Positions 12,500 through 41,276 of a stretch of DNA of 41,276 bases are shown piece by piece. The DNA is taken from positions 1 to 41,276 of the forward strand of contig JALOTC010000010.1 in NCBI GenBank assembly GCA_025458085.1, written 5' to 3'. Source of the DNA: Cypionkella sp. (GTDB taxonomy: Bacteria; Pseudomonadota; Alphaproteobacteria; Rhodobacterales; Rhodobacteraceae). Each line of letters begins with the position of its first letter. Position 1 is the stretch's first letter. The translations under genes were made by a program, and so were the position numbers. The notes below the pieces were generated by a model that was not told the DNA's origin, made no database searches, and saw only the letters and a list, made by a program, of their open reading frames with translations.

Positions 12500-12700
12500 A
12501 CCCCCGGGTGGCACCCTACCCGACCCCTGCACTCTTGGCTTCATACCGGGGAGGGCTGTCTGCCCGACCCTTTGCACTCTTGGATTTACCCCGGAGTGGG
12601 CTGTCTGCCCGACCCAGATCTTTCTTGGATATACCCCGGGGAGGGCTGTCTGCCCTCCCCGGACCCCTCCCGAGGATATTTGGAAACAGATGAAGGGGCC
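12500..12700. repeat. Degenerate tandem array (about 45-nt period) of an intergenic hairpin element ending in GAGGATATTTGGAAACAGATGAAG
   Basis: Copies of CCGGGGAGGGCTGTCTGCCCGACCC...CTCTTGGAT; last copy forms perfect 9-bp stem GGGGAGGGC-TGTCT-GCCCTCCCC (12638-12660). Confidence 0.75.
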
Positions 12701-12810
12701 GATGCAGGCTCGTTCTATCGGCGCAGCCACGCGCATTACGCGGCCCACGTGACAATCTCAAAGCCCCCGCCTATAAGCCGCGCAAAATTCCCTTTCGCTA
12801 CAGGTGCCCC

Positions 12811-13731: not shown

Positions 13732-13743
13732 TCGCACCGCAAA

Positions 13744-13776
13744 GTGAAAAGGCCGGGAAACCCCGGCCCTTTTCAC
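13744..13776. terminator. Bidirectional terminator-like hairpin between convergent ppaC and gshA
   Basis: GTGAAAAGGCCGGG-AAA-CCCCGGCCCTTTTCAC (one bulge), flanked by A and T tracts within the stem. Confidence 0.75.
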
Positions 13777-13790
13777 ATCCGAACATCCGC

Positions 13791-19996: not shown

Positions 19997-20097
19997 TCGC
20001 GGCCCCTGCACCAACTGACGCCCTCATCAAGCCCCTTGCCCCAATTCGCCTAGCGCGCATACTGCTCTCTTGTCGCTTTTCCATCGGAGCCTTTCCC

Positions 20098-20667
20098 ATG
20101 CGCCTTTTCCCAAGCCTTGTTCTCCTTGCCGCGGCCCTCACCCTGCCTGCTCAGGCGGATGAAGTATCAGACCGGATCGACGCCGCCCGCGCGGCTTACG
20201 ATGCCCAAGACCTTAGAACCGCGGGCGCGGAACTCGCCGCCGCCAGCAAGGCGATTGCCGAGATGAAATCGGCCCTTTTGGCCCAGTCCCTCCCCGCTGC
20301 CCCCGAAGGCTGGTCGCAAACCATCAACACCGAATTTCAAGCCAATCTCGCCATAGCGGGCGGCGGAACGGGGGCCGAAGCCTCTTACGCTGCCGAAGAT
20401 GGCACCACGGTCACCGTCAACATGATGATGGATAGCCCGATGCTGGCCATGATGATGGGCATGTTCGGCAATCCGCAAATGCTCGCCATGATGGGAAAAA
20501 CGGTCGAGGTGAACGGCGCCACGCTGCTCGATCAGGACAACAGCCTGACGACCGTGGTCGACAACCGCATCATGGTCAGCATCAGCGGCGCGCCCGCCGA
20601 CCAACTCCTGCCCTTCGCCCAAGGCATGGATTTCGTCGCCCTCGCAGGTTTCGACGCGCCGAAGTAA
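20098..20667 (+). CDS. Secreted/periplasmic hypothetical protein
   Basis: Signal peptide MRLFPSLVLLAAALTLPAQADE followed by soluble domain; start after ACTGCTC.. leader. Confidence 0.75.
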   Translation: MRLFPSLVLLAAALTLPAQADEVSDRIDAARAAYDAQDLRTAGAELAAASKAIAEMKSALLAQSLPAAPEGWSQTINTEFQANLAIAGGGTGAEASYAAEDGTTVTVNMMMDSPMLAMMMGMFGNPQMLAMMGKTVEVNGATLLDQDNSLTTVVDNRIMVSISGAPADQLLPFAQGMDFVALAGFDAPK

Positions 20668-20670
20668 CGC

Positions 20671-21459
20671 TCAAGGCCCGCCCAGACAGGCCTCCATCAA
20701 GGCACTGCCCGGATCGGCCAGATCGTCGATCACATCGAAATGGTGCCGCCCCGCCGCCACGGTCCAAGGGCAGGCCCAATCTTCCGACAGACAGCGCGCC
20801 TGCCACACAAAGGCAGGCCGCTCCTGCCCGCCAACCCAGACATGCGCCTCCACCCCCGCGCAGCGCGGCAGGAGTGTCGGGCTTTCCGCCGCCGCCTCCG
20901 CCGCATCCAGCCGCAGGGTCTCGTTCATCGTCGTGGCCATCAGGGGCCGCAGATCGGCCAGCGGCGAAATCGGCACCACCCGCACCACGCCCTCGGCCCC
21001 ATCTGCGCAGCCCATCCGCGCCGCCAGATGCCCCCCCGCCGAATGGCCCGTGATGACCACAGGCCCCGCCACCTGCCCGCGCGCAAAGGCCACCGCCGCG
21101 CGGATCTCTGCGGTCATCTGCGCAATCCGCGCCTCTGGGGCCAAGGTATAAGAGGGCATCGCACAGGCCCAGCCCCGCGCCAAAGCCCCCGCCGCCAGAT
21201 GGGACCACTCCTCGCGCCCAAAGGCCATCCAATAGCCGCCGTGGACAAAAACCATCACCCCCAGCGCTGCGCCTTCGGGCAAAAAAAGGTCCATCCGCTG
21301 CCGCGCCCCCGGCCCATAGGCCAGCCCCAGCCGCGCCCGTGCGCCCAGTGCGGCCCGAAACGCCGCTGCCTCTGCCTGCCATCTCGGCACGAACCCCTCC
21401 GCGCCGGGAATAAAGGCTCCATTGGCATAATCCCGGTCCGCTTGGCTTGCGAATTCCAT
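20671..21459 (-). CDS. Alpha/beta hydrolase, arylformamidase-like
   Basis: VFVHGGYWMAFGREEWSHLA (HGGYW), nucleophile GHSAGGHLAARM, DVIDDLADPGSAL. Confidence 0.82.
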   Translation of the reverse strand: MEFASQADRDYANGAFIPGAEGFVPRWQAEAAAFRAALGARARLGLAYGPGARQRMDLFLPEGAALGVMVFVHGGYWMAFGREEWSHLAAGALARGWACAMPSYTLAPEARIAQMTAEIRAAVAFARGQVAGPVVITGHSAGGHLAARMGCADGAEGVVRVVPISPLADLRPLMATTMNETLRLDAAEAAAESPTLLPRCAGVEAHVWVGGQERPAFVWQARCLSEDWACPWTVAAGRHHFDVIDDLADPGSALMEACLGGP

Positions 21460-21516
21460 CTCCGCCTCTTTTGATCAAAAAATGGCCGCCCTAGAACTGG
21501 ACAGGACGCCTGCGCC

Positions 21517-22974
21517 ATGCTTTGCATGTCCCGATCCGAAATGGGAGAGTCCGATGCTCGACACCGTCACCAACCTCGCGTCCCTTCTCAAGATGGCGAT
21601 ACTTTCGCCGTGGTGAACCCCGCCCGCGGCGACATCATCTGCCATGTCCCCAACCTTGGCCGGGCCGAAACCGCTCGCGCCATCGCCGCCGCTGATGCCG
21701 CGATGAAGGATTGGGCCGCCCGCACCGGCAAGGAACGCGCCCAAATCCTGCGCAAATGGTTCGAGTTGATGATGGAAAACCAGCACGATCTGGGCCTCAT
21801 CCTCACCGCCGAAATGGGCAAACCGCTGGCCGAGGCAAAGGGCGAAGTCGCCTATGGTGCCTCCTTCATCGAATGGTTCGGCGAAGAGGCGAAACGCATC
21901 TACGGCGAAACCATCCCCGGCCACCAGCGCGACAAGCGCATCACCGTGCTCAAACAACCCATCGGCGTTGTCGGCTCCATCACGCCGTGGAACTTCCCCA
22001 ATGCGATGATCGCCCGCAAGGCTGGCCCCGCGCTTGCCGCAGGCTGCGGCTTCGTCGCCCGCCCGGCGGCAGAAACGCCCCTTTCGGCGCTGGCGATGGG
22101 GCTTTTGGGCGAACGCGCGGGCCTTCCCAAGGGGATTCTCTCCATCATCACCTCCAAGAAATCCTCCGATATCGGCAAGGAATTCTGCGAAAACCACACC
22201 GTGCGCAAACTCACCTTCACCGGCTCGACCGAGGTAGGCCGCATCCTTCTGCGTCAAGCCGCCGATCAGGTGATGAAATGCTCCATGGAACTGGGCGGCA
22301 ATGCCCCCTTCATCGTCTTTGACGACGCCGATCTCGATGCCGCGGTCGCCGGAGCGATGATGTCGAAATTCCGCAACAACGGCCAAACCTGCGTCTGCGC
22401 GAACCGCATCTATGTGCAGGCCGGCGTCTATGACGCCTTCGCCGCCAAACTCCGCGCCGCCGTTGAAAAATCCCGCGTGGGCGATGGCCTGTCTGATGAT
22501 GTGCAATTCGGCCCCCTCATCAACAAGGCCGCTGTCGAAAAGGTGCAGGAACATATCCAAGACGCCACCGCCAAAGGCGCACGCGTCGAACTCGGCGGCA
22601 AGCCCCATGCGCTTGGCGGCAATTTCTTCGAACCCACCATCCTCACCGGCGTGACCGATGACATGCTGGTGACGAATGAAGAAACCTTCGGCCCCCTCGC
22701 GCCACTGTTCAAATTCGACACCGAGGAAGAAGTCGTGGCCAAGGCCAACGCCACGATATTCGGCCTCGCCTCCTATTTCTATGCCCGCGACATTGGCCGC
22801 ATCACCCGCGTGCAAGAGGCGCTGGAATACGGCATCGTCGGGGTGAACACCGGCATCATCTCCACCGAAGTCGCCCCCTTCGGCGGGGTCAAGCAATCCG
22901 GCCTTGGCCGCGAAGGCTCCCGCCATGGGATGGAGGATTATCTGGAGATGAAATACATCTGCCTCTCGATCTGA
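21517..22974 (+). CDS. gabD: NAD(P)-dependent succinate-semialdehyde dehydrogenase; N-terminus appears disrupted
   Basis: FAVVNPARGDIICHVPN...PWNFPNAMIARKAGPALAAGCGF...MELGGNAPFIVFDDADLD...NNGQTCVCANRIYV...GGVKQSGLGREGSRHGMEDYLEMKYICL; start region abnormal (see findings). Confidence 0.88.
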   Translation: MLCMSRSEMGESDARHRHQPRVPSQDGDTFAVVNPARGDIICHVPNLGRAETARAIAAADAAMKDWAARTGKERAQILRKWFELMMENQHDLGLILTAEMGKPLAEAKGEVAYGASFIEWFGEEAKRIYGETIPGHQRDKRITVLKQPIGVVGSITPWNFPNAMIARKAGPALAAGCGFVARPAAETPLSALAMGLLGERAGLPKGILSIITSKKSSDIGKEFCENHTVRKLTFTGSTEVGRILLRQAADQVMKCSMELGGNAPFIVFDDADLDAAVAGAMMSKFRNNGQTCVCANRIYVQAGVYDAFAAKLRAAVEKSRVGDGLSDDVQFGPLINKAAVEKVQEHIQDATAKGARVELGGKPHALGGNFFEPTILTGVTDDMLVTNEETFGPLAPLFKFDTEEEVVAKANATIFGLASYFYARDIGRITRVQEALEYGIVGVNTGIISTEVAPFGGVKQSGLGREGSRHGMEDYLEMKYICLSI

Positions 22975-22981
22975 CCTTCCG

Positions 22982-23025
22982 CCGCGGGCGGGGTTTCTGT
23001 GCGCCAGCGCAGGCCCCTCCCGCGG
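22982..23025. terminator. Strong GC hairpin downstream of gabD
   Basis: CCGCGGGCGGGG ... CCCCTCCCGCGG (11 of 12 paired) with inner CTGTGCG/GCGCAG pairing; no T tract. Confidence 0.45.
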
Positions 23026-23097
23026 CTCACGCCACTGGCGGCGCGGGCGCACAGCGCCTAGCTTTAGGGCCAAAGCCACAGCAAAGGGCATCCGCCA

Positions 23098-23895
23098 TGT
23101 CAAACGACTACACTCCCCCGAAAGTCTGGAAATGGGAACAGCCCTCGGGCGGCGCTTTCGCCAATATCAACCGCCCCATTGCAGGCGCCACCCATGACGC
23201 GCATCAAGGTCACGATCCTTCTGGAAGAACTGCTGGAGGCTGGCCACGCCGCCGAATATGACGCGTGGCATATCGATATCGGCAAGGGCGAACAATTCAG
23301 CACGGGCTTCGTCGCCATAAACCCCAATTCCAAAATCCCCGCGCTGATGGACCACAGCGCCACACCGCCCCAGCGCGTCTTCGAATCCGCCTCCATCATG
23401 CTCTATCTCGCCGAAAAATTCGGCGGCGCCTTCATCCCCCAAGCCCCCGCCGACCGGACCGAGATGTTTAACTGGCTCTTCTGGCAAATGGGCAGCGCCC
23501 CCTTCGTCGGCGGCGGCTTCGGCCATTTCTACGCCTATGCCCCGGTGAAAATCGAATATGCGATCAACCGCTATGCGATGGAAACCAAGCGCCAGCTTGA
23601 CGTTCTCAACCGCCATCTCGCCGACCGTGACTGGATGGCAGGCCCCAGCTACAGCCTCGCCGATATCGCGATCTTCTCGTGGTATGGCAACATGGTCCTT
23701 GGCCGCGCCTATAACGCCGCCGAATTCCTTGATGTCGAAAGCTATACCCATGTCCTCGCTTGGGCGCGCCGCATCGATGCCCGCCCCGCCGTGATCCGTG
23801 GCCGCATGGTCAACCGCACCTGGGGTGAGCCTTGGGAACAACTCAAGGAACGCCATTCCGCCGCCGATTTCGCCAGCGTCCCGAAACGGCCCTGA
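23098..23895 (+). pseudogene. YghU-type glutathione S-transferase; frame interrupted near N-terminus (intact ORF 23179..23895)
   Basis: Frame from 23098 reads MSNDYTPPKVWKWEQPSGGAFANINRPIAGATHDA (YghU N-terminus); the family continues in another frame as IKVTILLEELLEAGHAAEYDAW...INPNSKIPALMDHS...GGGFGHFYAYAPVKIEYAINRYAMETKRQLDVL. Confidence 0.75.
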
Positions 23896-23910
23896 AGTCT
23901 CCTGTCCTCC

Positions 23911-23963
23911 TTCATCTTGGCCCAAATACTCTCGGGGGGCGCGGGGGGCAGACAGCCCCCCGC
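23911..23963. repeat. Second copy of the dispersed intergenic hairpin element (opposite orientation to 12500..12700)
   Basis: TTCATCTTGGCCCAAATACTCTCGGGGGGC + perfect 9-bp stem GCGGGGGGC-AGACA-GCCCCCCGC. Confidence 0.75.
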
Positions 23964-24087
23964 CTTACCGGCAAGCCAAGGCAGGCAGATCCGAAACGCG
24001 TGATTTTGACACCTGCCGCATCGCGCCCCTTCCCCCTGCGCGCCCTTTGCGCTATGCGGCCCCGTCTTTGGACGGAAGGAGCACCAG

Positions 24088-25044
24088 ATGGGCTACAAGG
24101 TCGTTGTCGTCGGCGCTACCGGGAATGTGGGCAAGGAAATGCTCAACATCCTGGCCGAGCGCGAATTCCCCGTGGATGAAATTGCCGCGCTGGCCAGCCG
24201 AAAATCGCTGGGCACCGAGGTAAGCTTCGGCGACCGAACTTTGAAAACCCAGGATTTGGACACGTTCGACTTCACGGGCTGGGATATCGCGCTCTTCGCC
24301 ATCGGGTCAGACGCGACCAAGGTCTATGCGCCCAAGGCGGCAAGCCAAGGCTGCGTGGTGATCGATAACTCCTCGCTTTACCGCTACGATCCGGACATTC
24401 CGCTGATCGTTCCGGAAGTGAACGCGGAGGACATCGTCCGCTACAAGAACAAGAACATCATCGCCAACCCCAACTGCTCCACCGCGCAGATGGTGGTGGC
24501 CCTCAAGCCCCTGCATGACCGCGCCCGCATCAAGCGCGTGGTCGTCGCCACCTATCAATCGGTCTCCGGCACCGGCAAAGAGGCGATGGACGAACTCTGG
24601 AACCAGACCAAGGGCCTGTTCGTCCCCGGTCAGGAAGTCGCGCCCAAGGTCTACCCCAAGCAGATCGCCTTCAACGTGATCCCGCATATCGACATCTTCC
24701 TCGACTCGGGCGAGACGAAGGAAGAATGGAAGATGGTGGCCGAAACGAAGAAGATCCTTGATCCGTCGATCAAGGTCACCGCCACCTGCGTGCGCGTGCC
24801 GGTGTTCGTCGGCCATTCCGAGGCGATCAACATCGAATTCGAAGATTTCCTCGATTGGGAAGAGGCGACCGATATCCTGCGCGAAGCGCCCGGTGCCACC
24901 TACATCAGCCGCATCCGTCAGGATTCGACGATCGAGAATGGCCTGAACCTGTGGTGCGTCAGCGACAACCTGCGCAAGGGTGCCGCCCTGAACGCCGTGC
25001 AGATTGCCGAAGTGCTGGGCAACCGCTGCCTGAAAAAGGGCTGA
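24088..25044 (+). CDS. asd: Aspartate-semialdehyde dehydrogenase, with apparent in-frame internal deletion
   Basis: MGYKVVVVGATGNVGKEMLNILAEREFPVDEIAALASRKS..., NPNCSTAQMVVALKPLHD, RVPVFVGHSEAINIEF, SDNLRKGAALNAVQIAE. Confidence 0.93.
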   Translation: MGYKVVVVGATGNVGKEMLNILAEREFPVDEIAALASRKSLGTEVSFGDRTLKTQDLDTFDFTGWDIALFAIGSDATKVYAPKAASQGCVVIDNSSLYRYDPDIPLIVPEVNAEDIVRYKNKNIIANPNCSTAQMVVALKPLHDRARIKRVVVATYQSVSGTGKEAMDELWNQTKGLFVPGQEVAPKVYPKQIAFNVIPHIDIFLDSGETKEEWKMVAETKKILDPSIKVTATCVRVPVFVGHSEAINIEFEDFLDWEEATDILREAPGATYISRIRQDSTIENGLNLWCVSDNLRKGAALNAVQIAEVLGNRCLKKG

Positions 25045-25070
25045 GTCGCCCTCGACCTACGTGAAGCAGA

Positions 25071-25093
25071 GGCCCGCCATTGGCGGGCCTTTT
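25071..25093 (+). terminator. Rho-independent terminator downstream of asd
   Basis: GGCCCGCC-ATT-GGCGGGCC followed by TTTT. Confidence 0.8.
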
Positions 25094-25279
25094 GCTTTGC
25101 TGCATCCTGATAGCAAACAAGGCGTCACAGCCACACAGGGGCACATGGCCCCAAACCATCCGGAAACCATCCAAAAGGTGGTGTCCCTTATCCTTCCAGA
25201 AGCACGGCTTATCTTTTCGCGCAGGTGCATTGGCGCAGTCTTCAGCCTATTCCTAGATCATCGCGAAAGGAGATGCGCC

Positions 25280-25441
25280 ATGACCCAGAAAGCTGAAGAA
25301 CTCTTCGCCTCGCTCGCCGAAATGTTCTCGCCCTCGGCCAAGCGCTATGCGGAATCGCTTGCCCCCCTGATGCCCAAGCGGGACGCAACGGCTTCGCACT
25401 CCACGCCTCGTCGCGTCAGCGTGTTTGGTCACGCTGCCTGA
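25280..25441 (+). CDS. Small 53-aa hypothetical protein
   Basis: MTQKAEELFASLAEMFSPSAKRYAESLAPLMPKRDATASHSTPRRVSVFGHAA; Shine-Dalgarno-like AAAGGAG upstream; own terminator downstream. Confidence 0.6.
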   Translation: MTQKAEELFASLAEMFSPSAKRYAESLAPLMPKRDATASHSTPRRVSVFGHAA

Positions 25442-25467
25442 TCGTTTCACACGTTCCTCTGGGAAGG

Positions 25468-25496
25468 GGGGATGGCTGAAAGGCCATCCCCTTTTT
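25468..25496 (+). terminator. Rho-independent terminator downstream of the 53-aa ORF
   Basis: GGGGATGGC-TGAAAG-GCCATCCCC followed by TTTTT. Confidence 0.85.
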
Positions 25497-25549
25497 CCGT
25501 TTCAAGGGAAATGGCAAAGCGCGGCACGGTGCAAAACCGTCCCACGCAC

Positions 25550-26194
25550 TCAAACCGGGGAAAAACCGCGCAGGGGGTCGTATTGCTCCAGAACGCCTTC
25601 GCCCGTGTCATTCCACAACCCATGCAGCGTCAAACGCTCTTCCTCGACCGCGCGGGCGACGAAGGGGAAGGTCATCAGGTTTTCAAGGCTCACCAACACC
25701 GCCTCTTTCTCCAAGGCGCGCGGGCGCACAGCATCGGGCAGGTCTTTCACCCGGTCAAATCCGGGGCGCAGAATATCCATCCACCGCCCGACGAAAGAGG
25801 ATTTCTCCTCCAAAGCGGGGGCAAGGCCACAGCACATGTCATGGCACCCCCGCACGCCGCCACAGTTCGAATGGCCCAGCACCACGATATGCGCCACACC
25901 CAGCGAGGTGACCGCATATTCCACCGCCGCCGATGTGCCGTGATACTCGCCATCAGGATTATAGGGTGGCACAAGATTTGCGATGTTGCGGTGGATGAAG
26001 AATTCCCCCTCATCCGCCCCAAAGATCGACGTAACATGGACGCGGCTGTCACAGCAGGAAATCACCATGGCGCGCGGATGCTGACCACTTTCGGCCAACC
26101 TGCGAAACCACGCCTTGTTGTCCTGATAGGAGGTCGCGCGCCAGCCATGAAACCGCTGGATCAGATAATGGGGAAGCGGGCGGGCTGCATTCAT
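25550..26194 (-). CDS. Beta-class carbonic anhydrase
   Basis: AMVISCCDSRVHVTSIFGADEGEFFIHRNIANLVPPY..., VLGHSNCGGVRG. Confidence 0.95.
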   Translation of the reverse strand: MNAARPLPHYLIQRFHGWRATSYQDNKAWFRRLAESGQHPRAMVISCCDSRVHVTSIFGADEGEFFIHRNIANLVPPYNPDGEYHGTSAAVEYAVTSLGVAHIVVLGHSNCGGVRGCHDMCCGLAPALEEKSSFVGRWMDILRPGFDRVKDLPDAVRPRALEKEAVLVSLENLMTFPFVARAVEEERLTLHGLWNDTGEGVLEQYDPLRGFSPV

Positions 26195-26348
26195 GCCGGT
26201 CGTCCTCGGGTCGCCCTTAGGGCGGGTCTAGGCGCGGTGATACGGGGCAATCGCAGAAAATTCGAGAGGAATATTGCCGCGGCAGCAACGTTTTCTTCAG
26301 CGCCGCGGCTGTTTCTCGCATTCGGGTGTGACTAGGAAAGGTGTGGCC

Positions 26349-26738
26349 ATGACGGCTGAAAAAATTGTCACGCTGCATCCCGTTGAACGGGTGCAGCAAG
26401 ATGCGGAACCCATCGCCTCGCTCTATCGCGATCTGGGCACAACCTCCGCCGAACAGGTGGTGACACGTGCGCTCACGGAACTGGGGCTGACCATGGCAGC
26501 GCTCAATGCACAGGTCCGCGCCCGCGACCTCGATGCACTCGCGCGCCGCCTGCGCAAATTGCAGTCCATGGCCGAAAACCTCGGACTTGTGTCCCTTGCC
26601 CGTGTGGCACAGGATCTGCGCATTTGCCTTGGCCGCAGCGATGCCACGGCCTTTTCCGCCGTCTGGGCGCGGCTCATCCGCATCGCGGAACGCTCGCTTG
26701 CCCCGGACCGCGATCTGCTCGACAGGTCGCTACACTGA
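26349..26738 (+). CDS. Helical hypothetical protein
   Basis: MTAEKIVTLHPVERVQQDAEPIASLYRDLGTTSAEQVVTRALTELGLTMAALNAQVRARDLDALARRLRKLQSMAENLGLVSLARVAQDL... Confidence 0.65.
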   Translation: MTAEKIVTLHPVERVQQDAEPIASLYRDLGTTSAEQVVTRALTELGLTMAALNAQVRARDLDALARRLRKLQSMAENLGLVSLARVAQDLRICLGRSDATAFSAVWARLIRIAERSLAPDRDLLDRSLH

Positions 26739-36742: not shown

Positions 36743-37423
36743 CTATTTCGCGCGGTCGTCCCCCTCTCCCTTGGGCAAGAGGGCGAGCGTCAGAACATGC
36801 CCCGCCGCATGGGTCAGCCGCCCGGCAATCTCGGCCCCCGCCGCAAAGGGCGCAATCGGCCCGGCAAAGCGGGCGACGAAACCCGCCTGTTCCACCGCAA
36901 CCGTCATCTGTTCAAATCCGAACAAAGTCTGGCTCACCGGATATTGCGCCTTGTAGGCCGCCTCCTTGGCCGAAAAGGCCACCTTGGCCGCAAGCCCCCG
37001 CGCCTCTGGCGCAAGCCGCATCAAGGCCATCTGTTCGTCGGGCAGCAGGATCGTATCCCACAGATCGCGCGGCAGCGGCGTCGCCTCCTCCAGATCAAGG
37101 CCAAGCCCCGCAAAACCATGCGACAGCCCCACCACCGCCAGACAGGCCCCGGCGGTATGGGTGATCGACCCCACCACCCCCACAGGCCAGACCGGCGCAC
37201 GATCCGCGCCTTGCGGCACCGCCACGGGTGGCAGGCCAATCTCGGCCATCGCCGCCCGCGCCGCCGCCCGCCCCGCCGCAAATTCCCGCAACCGGGCAGG
37301 CAGGGCATGGGGCAAGGCCTCACCAGGCAACAGCGCATGATCCCGCCCCGGATCGGCCCAGCCGCAGCCAAGCCCCGCCGGCACAAGCCCCCGCAGCGCA
37401 GAGAGCAGCACCTCCTCAGGCAT
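36743..37423 (-). CDS. 4'-phosphopantetheinyl transferase, Sfp/EntD type
   Basis: PVWPVGVVGSITHTAGACLAVVG, GLDLEEATPL, AKVAFSAKEAAYKAQYP; 8-nt overlap with NRPS 3' end. Confidence 0.9.
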   Translation of the reverse strand: MPEEVLLSALRGLVPAGLGCGWADPGRDHALLPGEALPHALPARLREFAAGRAAARAAMAEIGLPPVAVPQGADRAPVWPVGVVGSITHTAGACLAVVGLSHGFAGLGLDLEEATPLPRDLWDTILLPDEQMALMRLAPEARGLAAKVAFSAKEAAYKAQYPVSQTLFGFEQMTVAVEQAGFVARFAGPIAPFAAGAEIAGRLTHAAGHVLTLALLPKGEGDDRAK

Positions 37424-40400
37424 CCACGCCCGACCGTGCCGCCCGCATCGCCCGCCGCCGCGCCATGGCCTCGGCCCGCGCATCAGCCTGTGTGGCAATC
37501 CCCGCAACAGGCCCCGCGGCGTTCACGGCAGCCGCGGCTGGCGCAGGCTTTGGCCTGTCATCCAAATGCCGCGCCAAGGCCTCCAAGGTGGGAAAACGGA
37601 AGATATCCGTGATCGACAACCGCGCCGCACCCAACTGATCGCGGATTTCCCGATGCACCTGCACCGCCAGCAACGAATGGCCGCCCAGCGCAAAGAAATT
37701 GTCCTTCGCCCCCACCTTTGGAACGCCCAGCACCCGCGCCCAAATCGCCGCCAGTTGCGCAGCAACTCCCGTCTCGGGCGCCTCAAAGGCCACAGGCGCA
37801 GGCACAGCCGCCAATGGCGCAGGCAGGGCCTTGCGGTCCACCTTCCGGTTCGGGGTCAGGGGGAAGGCGGCAAGCCGCACGATCTGGCTCGGCACCATAT
37901 GCGGCGGAAGCCGCGCGCCCAGCTCCGCCTTCAGCCCCGCCTCCTGCGCCGCGCCGGTGACATAGGCCACCAGCCGCAGATCACCGGGGCTATCCTCCCG
38001 CGCCAGAACCACCGCCTGCGTCACGCCGGGCAGCGCCTCCAGCACGGCCTCGATCTCTCCCAACTCGATCCGATAGCCGCGGATCTTCACCTGATGATCC
38101 GCGCGGCCAAGGAATTCCAGCCGCCCATCGGCACGCCAGCGCACCAGATCACCGGTCCGATACATCCGCGCCCCCCAAGGGCAGGCCCGCTCCGCCGTCA
38201 CGAACGGGTCAGGGCGGAACCTCTCCTCCGTCAGATCAGGCCGCTGCCAATAGCCGCGCGTGACGCCATCGCCACCGATCCACAACTCCCCGGCCACACC
38301 GGGAGCCACGGGTTCCCCCGCCGAATCCAGCACGTAAACCTGCTGATTGGCCAAGGGCGTGCCGATCGTCACCGTGCCCTCGCCTGCGCCCACCTCCTCG
38401 ACCGTCGACCAGATCGTGGTCTCCGTCGGCCCATACATGTTGAGGATCCGCGCCTCCGTCGCCTGCCGCAGATCGGCCACCTGCGCCACAGGCAGAGCCT
38501 CGCCCCCGATCATCAGCGTGCTCAGCCCCGACAGCGCCGCCCGCGCCTCGTCGTTCATGGCAATCATCCGCGCCATGCTGGGCGTGCATTGCAGATGGGT
38601 CACCTTGTGGCGGATCAGTTGCGCAGCAATGGAAAAATCATCCGCCTCCACCACGCCCCCCGCATTGGCGCGCCGCACCACCTCGGCCAAGGGGTAAAGC
38701 CCCTCCATCACCTGTTCCGGCGCAATCCCGTAATCGATCAGGCAAGCCACCTCGCCCACACCGATGCGCTTCAACTGCTCCACCCGCGCCAAGGCATCCT
38801 CGACCGTGCCAAACAGCCCCGACTCCTCGAAATAGCGTTGAAAGGCGAAATCAAGGATCGCCGCATTTTCCTCGGCCGAGAGGGTCCGCAGGTCAATGTC
38901 CATCGGGTTGTCAACGCCTTCGGGCTTTTTGAAGGCGGGAAAGGCCCAAGCATATTGCTTCACCAACCCCACCGCCGCGCCCAGATAGGCTTTCATCGGC
39001 CCCTCGGCCACGCGGCGCACCTGGTCGCGGTCACGCCCCACAAAGCTATGCAGCATCAGCGTGACCACACCCGCCTCCGGGTCATGGCCCGCCTTGGCCC
39101 GCGCCGCGCGATAGAGGCGAATTTTCCCCGCCACCTCGTCAATCGACTGGCCCAGCAAATGGGTCAGCACATTGGCCCCCATCTCCCCCGCCTCGCGCCA
39201 TGTCTCGGGGTTGCCTGCCGTAGTCACCCACAGCGGCAATTCCGGCGACACCGGGCGCGGCTGCGTGCGCACGGTAAAGGGCGTGCCATCGGCCTTGGGG
39301 AAATCCACCCCCTCCCCGCGCCACAACCGCCGCAGCTGATCGGCCGCCGCATACATCGCGGCCTTGTTCGCAGGCGGCGTGTTTTCGGGGCGCAGCACAA
39401 AATCCTCGGGCTGCCAGCCGCTCGCAATCGCCATCCCCGCGCGGCCATTCGTCAGGTTGTCGATCACCGCCCATTCTTCGGCAATCCGCGCGGGGTGATG
39501 CAAGGGCACAACGCAAGACCCGGCCCGCACCCCGATGTTTTTCGTCACCGCCGCCACCGCGGCCCCGGTCACGCTCGGGTTCGGATAAGGCCCGCCAAAG
39601 GCATGGAAATGCCGCTCCGGCGTCCAGACCGCCACAAACCCGTGGCGATCCGCAAACTTTGCGCCTTCCAGCAAAAGCTCGTATTTCTTCGGCCCCGCCC
39701 CATCATCATTGCCCCAATAATACAGCGAGAAATCCATCTTCCGCGCCGAGCCGATCCGGCCAGAGGAGACAAGCGCCCGGTTTTCATCCGAGGAAATCAC
39801 CACCTTGAACCCGCGCGCCAGCGTCCAGAACAATTCCAGCACCGAAATGTCGAAGGAAATCGAGGTAACCGCCAGCCAAACCCCGGCCTCCGCCCCGATC
39901 CGCTGATCCATCCCGGTAAAGAAATTGGCGACATTGCGATGTTCGACCATCACCCCCTTGGGCCGCCCCGTCGATCCGCTGGTATAGATCACATAGGCCA
40001 GATCGGCAGGCGTCACGCCACTGTCGGGGTTCGCCTCAGGTGCCGCCGAAATCCGCGCATCGCTATCAAGACACAGACGCTCCACCTCCCCCGGCAAACC
40101 GCCCTCCAGCGCGGCTTGGGTCACGATCACGGCAGAGCCGCTATCTTCGACATAAAGTGCCGTGCGATCCGCCGGATAGGCCGGGTCCATCGGGACATAG
40201 GCCCCGCCCGCCTTCAAAATCCCCAAGGCCCCCACCAGCATGTCAAGGCTGCGGCGGCAATGCAGGCCGACCAAAGCCCCCGGCCCCACGCCCATGCCGC
40301 GCAGCACATGGGCCACCCGGTTCGCGCGGCGGTTCAATTCCGCATAGCTCAGCGTCACGCCTTCAAAACTCACCGCCTCCGCCTCTGGCGTGCGCTGCAC

Positions 40401-41276
40401 CTGCGCCTCAAAGGCATGGTGCAGGCAAAGCGCCGCCCGCAGGGCCAGCGTCTGATTGGGCTGTGACAGCACCGCCTCCCGGTCTGCCGGCGAAAGCGCG
40501 GGCAGGCGGCCCAACACATCCTCCATTGCCGCCCCCGCGACTGCGCGCGCCACAAAACCCAAGCGCCCAGCCAAAGCCTCCGCCTCGGCCCGGGGCATCT
40601 GCGCCAGATCGACCGACAGCCCCGCTTCGGTCACGCAAACCGCGGTCCCCGCCACAGGCTCCGCCGTCAGCGAAACCCCCACCTTGGGCGGCTCCACCCC
40701 TGCCAAGGCAGGATCACGGCGCATCAGGTCCAAGGCCCAGCCCTTGGCCTCTGCCCCCGCCGCCAACGCCGCGCGATTGGCCCCAAGGCTCGCCTCAAGG
40801 CAAGCGCCATCGCCTCCACCGCCGCGCGGCCCGCAAGGCCAGTGTCAACGGGCAAGGTCACCCGCCCCCCCTCGCCCCCCGGCACCAGCCCCGGCAGGTC
40901 CAAAGGCTGCATCGCCGCCAAGGCCCGCCGCAACCGAGGCTCGAAAGGAACAACCTCGGCCAAGGCGCGGGTCAGCGCCGCCGCGTCCTCCGCCCCCAAA
41001 GGCGCAAGGTCGCGAACGGTGGAGGGGCACACCGGCAAACCCTTCACCTGACAGGTCAACCGCGAAAGGCGCACCGCGCCCGCCCCGCAGGCCACCACGA
41101 CCCCTTCGGCAGAGGAAGAGAGGACCGCACCCGGCTCCCCTGGGCCCACCACCACCTCGGCCGCGCCCACATTCAGTACGCCAAAGGACCCGGCAATCTT
41201 GGCCGTGGTCAGCGGGTTCCAATACCGCCCATGATCCAAGGCGCGGACCATCCGCGCCACATCCTCGGCGCTTTGG
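37416..41276 (-). CDS. NRPS module: [formyltransferase-like C-terminal domain]-linker-adenylation interrupted by luciferase-like monooxygenase-PCP; truncated by window edge and apparently frameshifted near 40800
   Basis: Frame 1 (41260..about 40800): HGRYWNPLTTAKIAGSFGVLNVGAAEVVVG..PGAVLSSSAEGVVVACGAGAVRLSRLTCQVKG. Frame 2 (40766..37416): [37 protein letters not shown], then LLM KMDFSLYYWGNDDGAGPKKYELLLEGAKFADRHGFVAVWTPERHFHAFGGPYPNPSV, then NMYGPTETTIW, YRTGDLVRW, PCP FFALGGHSLLAVQ. Confidence 0.9.

Follow-up and report, generated by a model that had tools for sequence, protein, structure and literature searches.

Three consecutive genes in the window (the whole 41,276-nt stretch of DNA that was analyzed) lack short internal segments, and we consider it about 95% probable that these are assembly or consensus artefacts of the draft genome and not real deletions; as judged from sequence comparison, the organism's true genes are almost certainly full length, and reads would be expected to restore the missing bases. 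The window corresponds to contig C122 of a fragmented draft genome from the Rhodobacteraceae (2.87 Mb in 236 contigs, 83% complete); this is not a finished isolate genome, and its fragmentation and completeness point to a metagenome-assembled genome (MAG). A first-pass annotation of the window had proposed that each of the three genes is short by 18 to 22 residues, two with a change of frame and one in frame, that an assembly or consensus artefact is the likeliest cause, and that the gaps should be sized by alignment with close relatives. That alignment, performed at the DNA level, gave 58 nt for gabD, 56 nt near position 23201 for a glutathione-dependent oxidoreductase (GST), and 66 nt for asd, which bears out the proposed sizes; gabD and the GST gene are shifted and asd remains in frame. 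The artefact explanation is likewise supported and applies across the entire draft genome.

The first of the three genes, gabD (21554 to 22974, plus strand), is of the NAD(P)-dependent succinate-semialdehyde dehydrogenase type in the aldehyde dehydrogenase family. DNA alignment with the best 14 genus relatives placed the 58-nt loss and its frame change at junction 1 (21592/21593), after the motif CTCAA and after codon 13; codons 1 to 13 (21554 to 21592) lie in one frame and the rest of the gene in another, which continues to 22974. Translated from the ATG at 21554, the gene reads MLDTVTNLASLLKMAILSPW, passing into the shifted frame, and then meets a stop, and the PF00171 match (E = 1e-160) covers residues past the junction. 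The second gene encodes a YghU-type glutathione-dependent disulfide-bond oxidoreductase (the GST; 23097 to 23895, plus strand) and lacks 56 nt near 23201, again with a frame change and again sized by DNA alignment with the best 14 relatives; junction 2 falls at 23201/23202, the exact base being uncertain by a few nucleotides. Its N-terminal part and the remainder are in different frames, and it matches NF008731 from profile position 57 onward (E = 4e-115).

The third gene, asd (aspartate-semialdehyde dehydrogenase; 24088 to 25044, plus strand), lacks 66 nt (22 codons) in frame at junction 3 (24893/24894), in the C-terminal part of the dimerization domain PF02774. It has 318 codons here against 340 (339 in one) in relatives, and the gene was full length in all 80 of the 80 named relatives found by the asd search; relatives from across the class align to it as two pieces flanking a 22-residue gap. 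The TIGR01296 and PF02774 matches end at residue 270, whereas a relative's match extends to the end of the protein, and the shortened protein still scores above the family cut-offs. Upstream of its junction, asd had a dN/dS ratio of about 0.06; the ratio was 0.12 to 0.13 for gabD and 0.17 to 0.19 for the GST gene. Outside the losses, gabD and asd are under strong purifying selection, and the low ratios of all three genes indicate that they were functional until the loss.

The losses are not confined to these three genes, as the first-pass annotation had supposed. A fourth, which it had missed, lies near 40797 in a large gene on the minus strand (37419 to 41276, truncated by the contig end) for an AMP-binding, luciferase-like monooxygenase, and formyl-transferase multidomain protein, an assignment made from the domains in a relative's protein; about 94 nt are absent at junction 4 (40790 to 40799) with a change of frame, and a gap of 91 to 94 nt with the same frame change recurs against relatives from several members of the genus. 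At least 18 further losses were found on eight other contigs when coding sequence from 18 contigs, about 203 kb in total, was compared with a same-genus genome (G009), the window being additionally compared with further relatives. Candidates were chosen by eye from the lists and re-aligned at the DNA level, so that the count of 22 losses (31 to 142 nt, median 62, spread over nine contigs) is approximate and comprises clear cases only; most were called against the single relative G009, and additional relatives were checked for glyQ, topA, and rplY. The resulting rate of 0.11 losses per kb, or roughly one loss in every 9 kb of the coding sequence compared, extrapolates to about 310 losses in the genome.

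Outside the window, the clear losses affected xdhA (102 nt) on C103; glucokinase (44 nt) and an MFS transporter (31 nt) on C106; an esterase (31 nt) on C112; aconitase (32 nt), purB (68 and 71 nt), and an M20 peptidase (50 nt) on C115; methylmalonate-semialdehyde dehydrogenase (38 nt) and pgm (72 nt) on C121; a MetR-like regulator (57 nt), a thiolase (142 nt), and topA (82 nt) on C123; glyQ (131 nt) on C191; and a trypsin-like protein (45 nt), trpA (69 nt), an MFS transporter (79 nt), and rplY (70 nt) on C3. The two losses in purB (C115, 6886 to 7100) are separate and about 200 bases apart, and the first, of 68 nt, was reported by the aligner as two gaps of 55 and 13 nt. A further gap in aconitase (in frame, near C115:1100) and less convincing candidates at C103:9944, C121:7228, C191:13979, and C3:9525, all with ambiguous DNA alignments, were left uncounted. 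The loss in glyQ changes the frame of a gene that is intact in 11 same-genus genomes, and no second copy of glyQ was found in the draft genome.

Several properties of the losses argue for an artefact. The genes glyQ, topA, purB, asd, and rplY are needed in most bacteria, and a living cell could not carry such losses in essential genes; trpA, aconitase, and pgm, which were also struck, count among the essential or central genes. The losses are also blind to the reading frame, since 16 of the 22 change it where chance alone would give 14.7 (p = 0.65). Natural indels are mostly a few nucleotides long, whereas the sizes here run from 31 to 142 nt, small high-identity frameshifts are nearly absent, and stops are not in excess over the control. 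The flanks align well, all clear events are deletions, and microhomology at the junction edges, scored in the relative, amounts to only 0 to 4 nt. Finally, 13 frame-changing losses of at least 20 nt with good flanks were present in 205 kb of the draft genome, compared with none in 164 kb of four control genomes of the genus (G003, G006, G007, and G011; P about 3e-5), where the control loci were regions syntenic with the window and included overlapping genes from several species.

Among the other explanations, the one that survives best, though we still regard it as improbable, is that these are genuine, recent deletions in a lineage, such as a host-dependent one, whose genome is decaying or under relaxed selection. 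The losses are present in the deposited sequence and, as in genuine pseudogenization in decaying genomes, internal deletions occur across many genes; the genome is also small (2.87 Mb against 3.1 to 5.0 Mb in genus relatives), although it is 83% complete. However, genome decay normally yields many frameshifts of 1 to 2 nt and many stops, neither of which is in excess here, and it would not be expected to limit the sizes to 31 to 142 nt or to leave dN/dS low; it would moreover have inactivated topA, purB, and glyQ, the last without a second copy. The first-pass annotation had offered relaxed selection in a decaying block as an alternative, which is contradicted by the low dN/dS of asd and gabD together with the near absence of small frameshifts. 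We give slightly less weight again to real recent losses of 31 to 142 nt throughout the genome by some unknown process, with external supply or intact copies on undrafted parts of the genome.

It is very improbable that the three proteins are natural short variants of the species, belonging to families that tolerate the loss of about 20 residues. The asd loss, being in frame, could if taken alone be a real variant, and the shortened protein passes the family cut-offs, but the frame is destroyed in two of the three losses and unrelated genes throughout the genome suffer the same kind of loss. Relatives with the same short proteins, which the first-pass annotation had named as the mark of a natural variant, were not found among dozens. 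No more credible is its suggestion of a local deletion-prone process acting on these 3.5 kb, such as replication slippage at short repeats or hairpins: three of the window's four events do fall inside 3.3 kb, but at the genome-wide rate such clustering has a chance of about 9%, the contigs show no over-dispersion of losses (p = 0.31), repeats were not found at the edges, neither stable hairpins (mean structure rank 0.41, Kolmogorov-Smirnov [KS] p = 0.21) nor extreme GC (p = 0.13) was significantly enriched in the missing stretches relative to the rest of the gene, and the same losses are scattered over eight other contigs and strike glyQ, topA, purB, and asd. Given that 9% chance and the lack of over-dispersion, the spacing of 1.6 to 1.7 kb to which the first-pass annotation had drawn attention carries no information.

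Under the artefact explanation, contigs would join two correct stretches directly, omitting 31 to 142 bases roughly once per 9 kb. The likely sites would be places where read coverage was absent or inconsistent and read pairs were used to link the pieces. The gap may then have been closed to zero or its run of Ns stripped; alternatively, the assembler may have made a local misjoin. Lost scaffold gaps are, somewhat tentatively, our favored software step: the joins are blunt, the only clear events are losses, and there is not a single N across 556 kb of the draft genome, although local misjoins of other kinds would leave the same traces. A run of Ns has been retained in another genome of the collection. 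Unusual structure or GC content in the missing stretches would have been a sign of coverage dropout; neither was significant. The survey found no losses shorter than 31 nt, an absence that does not follow in any obvious way from a simple N-stripping model. The edge microhomology of 0 to 4 nt also disfavors slippage, false read merging, and long-repeat collapse.

Errors of a related kind have been described. Chen et al. (2020; PMC7111523) reported that MAGs contain local assembly errors and scaffold-gap errors, that such errors put incomplete protein genes into databases, and that the assembler IDBA-UD is particularly suspected. The losses described here resemble those errors in that joins in short-read assemblies would place protein-coding genes in public databases in incomplete or incorrect form; they differ in that the cases of Chen et al. 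involve Ns and unsupported consensus, whereas these joins are free of Ns, lose 31 to 142 nt, and occur about once per 9 kb. Cooley and Wright (2024; PMC11017572) found assembly errors to underlie many bacterial pseudogenes, that is, genes broken in the assembly and intact in the organism, as would be the case here; their spurious pseudogenes comprise frameshifts and internal stops generally, whereas the class seen here is a loss of 31 to 142 nt. Genuine pseudogenization, by contrast, would not be expected to spare genes point frameshifts, stops, and relaxed dN/dS or to affect essential genes.

Other features of the window and its relatives were observed in the course of the analysis. Intergenic copies of a dispersed repeat, which is about 57 nt long, includes CCTTCATCTTGGCCCAAATACTCTCGGG, and is followed by a GGGGGGCAGACAGCCCCCC hairpin, occur at 23902 to 23984 and 12633 to 12712 in the window. 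The repeat gave 38 matches over about 520 kb of the draft genome and is present in genus relatives too; it is probably a terminator-like or repeat element. An Rfam search of positions 20000 to 26500 returned no match, including for the repeat copy at 23.9 kb. Synteny changes at 23895 to 24013: gabD and the GST gene adjoin in G005 (L070), and asd has a different location in those genus relatives that were examined. This change coincides with the repeat copy at 23902 to 23984, so it would be a genuine rearrangement or else a further misjoin. A second synteny break lies at 13733 to 13787. In G009 its two flanks share a contig, about 56 to 80 kb from each other, and in G003, G006, and G007 they are on separate contigs. 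In another genus genome of 880 contigs (G008), topA (C618:3425 to 4651) appears as overlapping match pieces with a short open frame, which suggests assembly errors in that genome too.

The three short genes represent no biological novelty. Something like 300 genes in this draft may be wrongly cut, and those affected include completeness and metabolic markers (asd, purB, trpA, glyQ, and topA); losses that are short, clean, frame-blind, and free of Ns offer an easy signature with which to screen other draft genomes.
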